Translations under genes and position numbers: made by a program
Shown here: positions 2,466-64,000 of the stretch, piece by piece
Position numbering within the stretch: the first letter of the stretch is position 1
How the letters are laid out: each line of letters opens with the position of its first letter
The notes under the pieces: generated by a model
What the model saw: the letters and a program-made list of their open reading frames with translations, nothing else
Told to the model about the DNA's origin: nothing
Database searches by the model: none
Assembly: GCA_927443345.1 (NCBI GenBank)
Contig: CAKMKJ010000025.1
Location: 61,845 to 125,844 of the forward strand
Direction of reading: 5' to 3'
Source: an uncultured Anaerolineaceae bacterium
GTDB lineage: Bacteria > Chloroflexota > Anaerolineae > Anaerolineales > Anaerolineaceae
DNA length: 64,000 bases

Positions 2466-3064
2466 GTTGTCACCCCTTTATGGTGTGAAACTTCGTATTC
2501 CTTGACCTGGTCAGCAAATGAAATCAGGTATCCTAATTCGTCACTGCCTTGAACCAGGCAAGTCTTTGAAAAAGCATCAATTTCAAAATGGACGCTTTCG
2601 CCGTCAGGTGTATTGAGCGTTTGTGCTTCAAGATCAATGTTCCATTCAGAGCGCGGAACTTCATCCAGCAGGTCTTTAAGCCTCTGATGTGTGGCTGCAT
2701 CCACCTGAATGGGAAGTAAACCGTTTTTGAGTGAATTATTGCGAAAAATATCACCAAAAGATAAGGCCACTACAGCATTAAAACCAAAACCGGTTAAAGC
2801 CCAGGGGGCATGTTCGCGGGAGGATCCGCAGCCGAAGTTATTGCCTGTAAAAAGGATGTGCGCACCCTGCGCTGCAGATTGGTTAAGCAAAAACTCAGGC
2901 TTGGGCGAGCCATCCGCATTGTAACGCCAATCTGAAAACAGGTTGGCTGCCAGACCAGCTTTGTCGGTCACTTTAAGAAAGCGCGCGGGGATGATCTGAT
3001 CGGTATCAATGTCATCCATGGGAAGGGATATGGCACGGGAGGTAATTGTTTTTATGGGTTCCAT
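2462..3064 (-). CDS. leuD: 3-isopropylmalate dehydratase small subunit
   Basis: Swivel-domain subunit of the LeuCD isomerase. It shows DDIDTDQIIPARFL near residues 17-30 and NFGCGSSREHAPWAL near residues 75-90, the substrate-binding loop of small-subunit aconitase-like proteins. At 200 residues it is the long bacterial form rather than the roughly 165-residue archaeal form. It starts 12 nt after leuC, overlaps cimA by 4 nt, and is preceded by AAAGGGAATC. With LeuC it probably serves both isopropylmalate and citramalate, as no separate citramalate isomerase is present in the window. Confidence 0.95.
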   Translation of the reverse strand: MEPIKTITSRAISLPMDDIDTDQIIPARFLKVTDKAGLAANLFSDWRYNADGSPKPEFLLNQSAAQGAHILFTGNNFGCGSSREHAPWALTGFGFNAVVALSFGDIFRNNSLKNGLLPIQVDAATHQRLKDLLDEVPRSEWNIDLEAQTLNTPDGESVHFEIDAFSKTCLVQGSDELGYLISFADQVKEYEVSHHKGVTT

Positions 3065-61618: not shown

Positions 61619-63589
61619 TTATTTCACCATTTCAATATAATCATCTGAAGTGGTTTCATTTAGGTCGCCGCCCAGAAATTCGATCAACTTCGTTACCAGG
61701 GTGGATTTTAGTTCCGCATCCTGGCGGCTCCAGGTGCGGCTTTTCACTTCAAGGAAGAACCCTAAATGAGGTTTTGTGATCTCATCGATATTGATAAAGA
61801 ACTCGAACCCCTCATACTTTATCAAGAAGCGGATGCGGTCTTTTTCAATTACTTTTTCAATTTGCGGCTTAAAGTATTCACGATAGAAACGAGGACTTTG
61901 AGTCGCAGCGGCCATGTAGCGGCTGCGTGAGAGCAGCACCTCCTGCGGGAAACGGCCTTCAATGGTTTGCCCAATCAAAGTTAACCGTGAACGGACCTGT
62001 TCAATATTGTTTTCGGGTCCGAGGAATTCATCTTCGCGATACCTGAGGATGCCCTGTTCGGGGTCTTTAAAGAAGAAATAGATATCAAATTCGCGATAAT
62101 GACGCTTGCGCAAGATTTCGATCTTCTCGCTTTGCAATGCCTCATAAATCGGTTTGGTATCTTTAATGCGCACTTTGATTTGAATTTCAAAGCTTTCTTC
62201 TTCTGCTGCGCCGCCAATCGCGACCAGTTTTGAAAGCACGGAGGATTCGCGTTGGATAAGGAAGGTATCTATCTTGCGGGCATATTCCTGACTGTTTCTG
62301 CGAATTTCATCCTCGTCGATGTTGAGTAGTTCGTTTTTTTGCATCAACCATTTTCCATTTACCATCACATCAGTCACATCTGAAGCTTTGGCGGCATAGA
62401 CGATCTGGGCGTAAGTTCCTTGCGGATTGTGTTTAAACTGCGGGCTGTTATGCAACGGAGAGATATCCACGAGGATTAAGTCAGCGCGTTTGCCTGCTTC
62501 AAGTGAGCCGGTGAGGTGGCCGATATGCATGGCCTGTGCGCCAAGACGGGTGCCCATTAAGAGAGCCTGCCGCGCTGGCAAGGTGGTGGGGTCACCGCTA
62601 AAGCCTTTTTGCAAGAACGAAGTCAGGCGAATTTCTTCAAACATATCCAGGTCATTGTTAGAAGCCGCGCCATCCGTGCCGATGCCTACGTTCAATCCAA
62701 GTTCAAGCATGCGACTGATTGGAGCAACCCCAGATGCCAACTTGAGATTAGAAGAGGGATTGTGCGCTACACCCACATTGAAATGCTGCATGGTGCGGAT
62801 CTCGCCGTCATCCACGTGCACGCAATGTGCAGCCAGCACTTTGGCATCGAAAAGGTTCTGTTTTTTGACATAAGGAATAACCGGCATGCCGTTTTCTTTA
62901 CGCATGTTTTCAACTTCAAATGCAGTTTCTGAAAGGTGGGTATGCAGTGGGACATCAAATTCCACTGCCAGAGCAGCCGCCGCTTTTAGAATCTCTGGCG
63001 GGCAGGTGTATGGCGCGTGAGGCGCAACAGATGGGATGATCAGTTCGTGTCCCTTCCATCTGCTAATGAAATCGCGCGACATTTCAAGGCTTTGTTCAAA
63101 AAATTGAGCATCAGGCGTGGGGTACTTCATCACTGACTGTGAGCATAAAGCGCGCATACCTATATCTGCCGCGGCTTTCGCAATATCTTCTTCAAAGTAA
63201 TACATGTCTGCAAAGGTGGTAACGCCTGATCGGATCATTTCTGCACAGGCTAATTGGGTGCCAAGTGTGACAAAGTCTTTAGAGACAAATTCGCGTTCCA
63301 CTGGCATCATATAGCCCATCAGCCAGACATCCAGTCTCAGGTCGTCTGCAAGGCCGCGCAGCAGGTTCATTGGCACATGTGTGTGAGCATTGACCAAGCC
63401 TGGCATTAGAACTTTACCATTGCAATCAATTATTTTTTCTGCAGTATATTTTGCCAGTATTTCTTTTTCATTACCGACCGCTACAATGGAATTTCCTTGA
63501 ATGGCAATGGCACCAGGATCATACTGTGAATAATCAAGATCCATGGTTAAAATGATGGCGTTCTTAAGGATTAGATCAGCTTGGGTCAT
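61619..63589 (-). CDS. Amidohydrolase (MTA/SAH deaminase-like) fused to a CYTH-like domain
   Basis: 656 residues. Residues 1-440 are a metal-dependent deaminase: VNAHTHVPMNLLRGLADDLRLDVWLMGYMMPVE, HAPYTCPPE, LHTHLSETAFEVENM, AHCVHVDD, GTDGAASNNDLDMFEEIR and a typical C-terminal beta-sandwich ending ADLILVDI. Best match is 5'-methylthioadenosine/S-adenosylhomocysteine deaminase-like. Residues about 460-650 form a CYTH-like domain: EESFEIQIKVRIKDTKPIYEALQSE, YREFDIYFFFKDPEQGILRYRED, RIRFLIKYEGFEFFINIDEI and LGFFLEVKSRTWSRQDAE. CYTH proteins bind triphosphates or adenylate-derived ligands. The start follows AGAGGAG. It overlaps the upstream gene by 14 nt. The coupling of the two activities is unknown. 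Confidence 0.85.
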   Translation of the reverse strand: MTQADLILKNAIILTMDLDYSQYDPGAIAIQGNSIVAVGNEKEILAKYTAEKIIDCNGKVLMPGLVNAHTHVPMNLLRGLADDLRLDVWLMGYMMPVEREFVSKDFVTLGTQLACAEMIRSGVTTFADMYYFEEDIAKAAADIGMRALCSQSVMKYPTPDAQFFEQSLEMSRDFISRWKGHELIIPSVAPHAPYTCPPEILKAAAALAVEFDVPLHTHLSETAFEVENMRKENGMPVIPYVKKQNLFDAKVLAAHCVHVDDGEIRTMQHFNVGVAHNPSSNLKLASGVAPISRMLELGLNVGIGTDGAASNNDLDMFEEIRLTSFLQKGFSGDPTTLPARQALLMGTRLGAQAMHIGHLTGSLEAGKRADLILVDISPLHNSPQFKHNPQGTYAQIVYAAKASDVTDVMVNGKWLMQKNELLNIDEDEIRRNSQEYARKIDTFLIQRESSVLSKLVAIGGAAEEESFEIQIKVRIKDTKPIYEALQSEKIEILRKRHYREFDIYFFFKDPEQGILRYREDEFLGPENNIEQVRSRLTLIGQTIEGRFPQEVLLSRSRYMAAATQSPRFYREYFKPQIEKVIEKDRIRFLIKYEGFEFFINIDEITKPHLGFFLEVKSRTWSRQDAELKSTLVTKLIEFLGGDLNETTSDDYIEMVK

Positions 63590-64000
63590 TTTTCTCCTCT
63601 GGGTAGACCTTTGAGATAAGTTGATGACGAATGAAGCTCAAACAGAAATTAACCGCCCATTCCTCGCGCAGCCCCGGAGCACCCATATATTCTCTGGTCA
63701 TGGTATCTGTCAAATCTGGGTATGAAAAATTGAGTTCGATTCGAGAAAGCTCCGGAGTGGGGGTGTATAGGCAGGTAAACATAGGGGATGTTAAACGAAC
63801 GGCTGGATTTCTAAATTGTGTAAAGTTTTGTGGTTCCACGCGCTCAACCAATAAATTCTTGCCTTCAAGCCCTTTGAAAGTATCCGGTGAAAAGCCGCCA
63901 AGGATCACTTTAATTGGATGTGGCCCATTTTCTATTATTTTTTGGATGACCTGGGGCAGTGTTTCATCGTCTACGCCGTAAATATCCGTGCCAAGTCTTT
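63576..64000 (-). CDS. Unrecognised protein, 5' end beyond the window
   Basis: The reading frame is open from the right edge (RLGTDIYGVDDETLPQV at its start in this window); the track's GTG at 63908 is internal. I do not recognise it. The visible 141 or so residues include HPIKVILGGFSPDTFKGLEGKNLLVERVEPQNF, a Pro/Thr loop, and an acidic-to-hydrophobic C terminus (EEWAVNFCLSFIRHQLISKVY). No signal peptide can be judged without the start. It ends 14 nt inside the amidohydrolase-CYTH gene, so it is likely the operon's upstream partner. Confidence 0.6.
   Translation of the reverse strand, partial: RLGTDIYGVDDETLPQVIQKIIENGPHPIKVILGGFSPDTFKGLEGKNLLVERVEPQNFTQFRNPAVRLTSPMFTCLYTPTPELSRIELNFSYPDLTDTMTREYMGAPGLREEWAVNFCLSFIRHQLISKVYPEEKNDPS

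Follow-up and report, generated by a model that had tools for sequence, protein, structure and literature searches.

A deaminase-type amidohydrolase is joined to a C-terminal CYTH/TTM-like barrel in one 656-aa protein encoded on the minus strand of the Anaerolineaceae DNA analysed here (a stretch of 64,000 nucleotides, referred to below as the window), and this fusion is real and conserved, old and stable. In our reading, to which we give an even chance, a metal-dependent deaminase of 5'-modified adenosine-type nucleosides has a catalytically reduced CYTH domain permanently attached at its C-terminus. A preliminary description of the sequence had already proposed the joining of a deaminase-type amidohydrolase to a CYTH-type barrel, and this, together with the open reading frame, its strand and its length of 656 aa, was confirmed. 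The gene and its two domains are located in the window as follows:

61619..63589, minus strand: fusion gene, amidohydrolase (deaminase) with a C-terminal CYTH/TTM-like domain, 656 aa (open reading frame and conserved architecture).
62270..63589, minus strand: deaminase domain, residues 1 to about 440 (also taken as 1-442) (PF01979, match to 4f0r, TM0936 catalytic residues).
61622..62212, minus strand: CYTH/TTM-like domain, residues about 460-656 (AlphaFold model, PDB fold search, Pfam CYTH scores of orthologues, hhalign).

Residues 60-415 matched Amidohydro_1 (PF01979) with an E of 1e-69 and 235.6 bits against a curated cut-off of 25, and the closest PDB relative of the deaminase half was the MTA/SAH deaminase 4f0r (E 3e-92), the best solved relatives being deaminases. 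Alignment with TM0936 revealed that the catalytic residues of this enzyme are kept in the fusion (H69, H71, E98, H191, H218, E221, H255, D306 and S310), including the HxH, His, Glu, His, Asp catalytic set (H69, H71, H218, E221, H255 and D306), and judged from the sequence the deaminase site is complete. CV1032 (PDB 4f0r/4f0s), annotated as an MTA/SAH deaminase, has the same catalytic residues but lacks the CYTH domain. The SAH/MTA deaminase TM0936 (PDB 1p1m/2plm) is likewise without a CYTH domain and shares with the fusion the metal and catalytic residues as well as an equivalent of Glu84, which we take to be a ribose contact. In contrast, Arg136 and Arg148 of TM0936, presumably the holders of the SAH (homocysteine) carboxylate, correspond to Q151 and F163 in the fusion. 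Since CV1032 is also without Arg at these positions, their replacement may still leave room for some SAH activity.

All NCBIfam equivalogs for SAH/MTA deaminases (PRK15493, PRK06038 and others) scored below their cut-offs (449.7 of 540 and 436 of 609 are examples). AhcY (SAH hydrolase), MTAP (MTA phosphorylase) and two MtnA-family genes are encoded elsewhere in the same genome, which leaves room for a role on 5'-deoxyadenosine or adenosine. Because the SAH arginines are absent, no equivalog was reached and SAH hydrolase, MTAP and MtnA functions are encoded elsewhere, we infer that 5'-deoxyadenosine, MTA or adenosine is favoured over SAH as the substrate. 5'-deoxyadenosine arises as a by-product of radical SAM enzymes and is inhibitory (PMC6079011). 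The label 'MTA/SAH-deaminase-like' used in the preliminary description fits the complete deaminase site but, with the two arginines for the SAH carboxylate missing, holds only at the level of the family.

Independent assemblies contain the same arrangement at 92-94% identity, which rules out an artefact of assembly. The fusion is encoded in one frame, in Anaerolineae genomes as well as in families of the phylum that are more distant. The C-terminal domain was detected in 182 of the 298 Anaerolineae genomes and a close deaminase orthologue also in 182 of the 298, the two lists matching by eye except for about four genomes. Across the Chloroflexota the domain occurred in 89 of 400 genomes, which belong to the Anaerolineae and to a second group, probably the Chloroflexia. 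The search for further proteins of this architecture called for at the outset has shown it to be widespread in the phylum rather than peculiar to this genome. Shortened copies that were checked (G131 apart) end at or near contig ends (G250:C268, for instance, stops at base 3024 of 3024), and two of them are split over two contigs; copies that look unfused thus stop where their contigs do. The fused deaminases formed one clade in the tree (support 98/90), with CV1032 adjoining among the proteins sampled. Two Candidatus Ozemobacter MAGs (L056 and L060) carry the fusion as well, at an identity of about 58% over the CYTH part; in the tree they fall within the Anaerolineales, which suggests either transfer or MAG contamination.

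Upstream, the gene overlaps the end of another reading frame:

63576..64000, minus strand: 3' end of a CinA-like gene, which shares 14 nt (63576-63589) with the fusion gene and is cut by the contig end at window base 64000 (full-length homologue L037:2528-3682).

The overlap of 14 nt had been described correctly, but the partner, then considered unrecognised, is recognisable as CinA-like, since its full-length relative (L037:2528-3682) contains MoCF_biosynth and CinA_KH domains according to Pfam. In Pfam this relative has no hit to the C-terminal deamidase domain of CinA, nor do its last 130 residues match any family there. Only close relatives showed the gene order cinA, fusion, glgA or malQ, while other genes follow the fusion in the distant genomes sampled, in several of them presumably dephospho-CoA kinase. 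As the gene order is confined to close relatives, a functional link between the fusion and the CinA-like neighbour or glgA/malQ was dropped; the overlap points to coupled translation within this lineage but not to a shared function, and the gene neighbours gave no functional hint.

The C-terminal 213 aa alone had no significant match in Pfam, NCBIfam or PDB sequences in single-sequence searches, nor did PDB sequences yield anything when searched with a profile of the C-terminal domain. Its tie to CYTH came solely from comparing folds and from broader profiles. An AlphaFold model of the domain (28 relatives; pLDDT 86.9, pTM 0.82) exhibited the strand order expected for a CYTH barrel. Foldseek comparison of the domain with the PDB yielded 56 matches at E <= 0.001, with ranks 1-16 all occupied by CYTH/TTM proteins, the top match being SaTTM 7ns9 (E 1e-8, TM 0.58/0.67); matches included the Yersinia AC-IV, ThTPase, plant 7z67 and Med18/Med20. 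The fusion protein itself stays below the gathering score of PF01928 (CYTH), whereas orthologues from the same order and from a more distant class (G027, G289, G323 and L097) exceed it. A comparison by hhalign of the fused domains with ordinary CYTH domains of related genomes and four PDB sequences gave a probability of 94.6% when 49 fused sequences were used for the profile, while an earlier one with 28 close relatives had been weak (probability 12%). Domain profiles and the predicted structure agree with the CYTH assignment suggested originally: the C-terminal part is CYTH by its modelled fold, and sequence comparison only just detects it as such. Apart from the fusion, the same genome encodes an ordinary CYTH protein in which ExExK and ExE are intact (G000:C55:42866-43273).

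Both hallmark motifs of the tunnel are altered in the fused domain:

62174..62188, minus strand: altered hallmark motif E468-x-Q470-x-K472, which replaces ExExK (49 of 49 fused sequences; aligned to EVEIK of ordinary CYTH).
61742..61750, minus strand: altered beta8 motif E614-x-K616, which replaces ExE (49 of 49 fused sequences; ordinary CYTH proteins of relatives have ExE).

Features kept and invariant in the tunnel include the first Glu and the Lys of ExExK, DxY (D502, Y504), RxR (R516, R518) and the metal-1 Glu, all of which are common to the fusion and the CYTH/TTM phosphatases (SaTTM 7ns9, AtTTM3, YgiF) along with the barrel fold. The fusion differs from these phosphatases in that the second Glu of ExExK is replaced by Gln, the second Glu of ExE by Lys, and the beta5 acid is missing; in the 49 fused sequences strand beta5 contained no conserved acid in any register, the beta4-beta5 tunnel register being uncertain. 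In AtTTM3, metal 1 is held by Glu169, the first Glu of the C-terminal ExE, and the water-activating metal 2 by an acidic patch of Glu2, Glu4, Glu90 and Glu171 (PMC4641920; PMC8233210). Glu2 and Glu169 correspond to the invariant E468 and E614, while Glu4 is replaced by Q470, Glu171 by K616 and Glu90 by a non-acidic residue. Going by these alignments, the metal-2 ligands are gone, the basic face and the metal-1 Glu are retained, and the tunnel is not that of a standard triphosphatase or cyclase. A triphosphate- or polyphosphate-binding tunnel, as the preliminary description had envisaged, is supported by the basic residues, DxY and metal-1 Glu, but not by the metal-2 acids, which have given way to Gln, Lys and a beta5 strand devoid of acid.

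Invariant positions of the domain comprise E468, Q470, K472, D502, Y504, R516, R518, D520, T537, R557, K583, R585, R587, D602, E614 and K616. Strand positions facing the tunnel varied less than those facing outward, with a mean entropy of 0.90 against 1.26 bits (one-sided p 0.017), a modest difference for which inward and outward parity was set from known motifs and not from coordinates; this higher conservation speaks for a ligand. With tunnel residues invariant and the catalytic metal-2 site absent, a ligand-binding, non-catalytic tunnel is the simplest reading, and in our judgement the chances of such a non-hydrolytic role, which is predicted from alignment and model, are about evenly balanced.

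The same invariant DxY, RxR, first-motif Lys and metal-1 Glu would also be compatible with a CYTH domain that still works, by means of unusual metal ligands, as a phosphohydrolase (tripolyphosphatase or pyrophosphatase), which would make the protein truly bifunctional and could, for example, remove both tripolyphosphate and 5'-deoxyadenosine after adenosyl-transfer reactions. The plant AtTTM1/2 proteins, which are without ExExK and ExE, are nevertheless reported to be active on pyrophosphate (PMC8233210), and some hydrolysis by the fused CYTH domain is therefore possible. They resemble the fusion in having a likewise degenerate CYTH tunnel with DxY (PDB 7z67) fused to another catalytic domain, but this partner is a phosphoribulokinase/uridine-kinase-like domain and the lineage is a different one. 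We consider a working phosphohydrolase unlikely because the metal-2 ligands are replaced in every fused sequence and mutation of Glu2, Glu4 or Glu169 in AtTTM3 strongly reduces hydrolysis (PMC4641920).

Two further motifs, RFYxEYF (61871-61891, residues 567-573) and TWSxxDA (61715-61735, residues 619-625), are nearly invariant and lie outside the predicted tunnel strands; they are candidate domain or dimer interfaces and could reflect a structural role. That the barrel is a structural or oligomerisation domain without a ligand, in the manner of Med18/Med20, the CYTH-like subunits of Mediator that were among the fold matches, would be in line with interfaces at these conserved patches beyond the tunnel (R567-F573, T619-A625). 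However, the predicted tunnel charges are invariant at about 43-95% protein identity, and so many buried charges would be needless in a purely structural barrel, which leaves this explanation with a small share of the probability.

A different use of the tunnel, a VTC-like phosphotransferase or polyphosphate-handling site in which the metal-1 Glu is kept while basic or neutral residues take the place of the acidic patch, is quite improbable. Vtc4p is basic at the positions of AtTTM3 Glu2, Glu4, Glu90 and Glu171 (PMC4641920), and the VTC domain (PF09359) has in common with the fusion the metal-1 Glu, the ExK of the C-terminal strand and a basic tunnel. On the other hand, its first motif is R-x-E/D-x-K as opposed to E-x-Q-x-K in the fusion family, and there is no profile similarity (hhalign probability 1.4%), so that homology to VTC is not supported even though the ExK motif is found in both. 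The genome that contains the window yielded no protein with a VTC domain, although several relatives (L117-L126) have such proteins.

The general CYTH fold and the fold matches to Yersinia AC-IV and ThTPase could also be taken to indicate a class IV adenylate cyclase or a thiamine triphosphatase joined to the deaminase. These enzymes are marked by HF before ExExK (HFxxxxExExK) and by W/YxRxR, respectively (PMC8233210). Neither mark was present in the fused sequences, in which no HF precedes the first motif and R, I or M predominate at position 514, and we regard this assignment as very improbable indeed.

Under the reading we prefer, a deaminase with a ligand-binding CYTH module, the substrate would be an adenosine-type nucleoside with a 5' modification (5'-deoxyadenosine, 5'-methylthioadenosine) or adenosine itself. 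The tunnel would bind an anion of the triphosphate or polyphosphate-like type, perhaps complexed with Mg, and would not hydrolyse it efficiently; binding may tune the deaminase or its assembly, a regulatory step that we guess from the architecture. The enzyme would then clear 5'-deoxyadenosine or MTA, which SAM chemistry leaves behind as by-products, and would do so at a rate that depends on phosphate or nucleotide status. In its most specific form, a CYTH/TTM barrel turned into an allosteric triphosphate/polyphosphate sensor and wired to a SAM by-product deaminase in two classes of the Chloroflexota, this proposal is tentative.

CYTH domains have been described in fusions with HD, exopolyphosphatase, nucleotidyl-kinase and CHAD domains, a nucleoside deaminase not being among them (PMC8233210). 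Literature searches for CYTH together with amidohydrolase returned no relevant paper, in keeping with the preliminary view that the pairing is undescribed. The protein combines known families in a new way and represents a distinct, catalytically reduced CYTH subfamily, which serves as a warning that neither adenylate cyclase nor thiamine triphosphatase is a safe annotation for its C-terminal domain. To our knowledge, no CYTH domain has so far been shown to act as a regulatory module, and if the sensor reading is true this would be the first; with a single protein and simple assays its role is testable. The fusion has been kept in much of the Chloroflexota with its tunnel residues invariant but without the metal-2 site, which points to a function of the CYTH fold different from the cleavage of phosphate.
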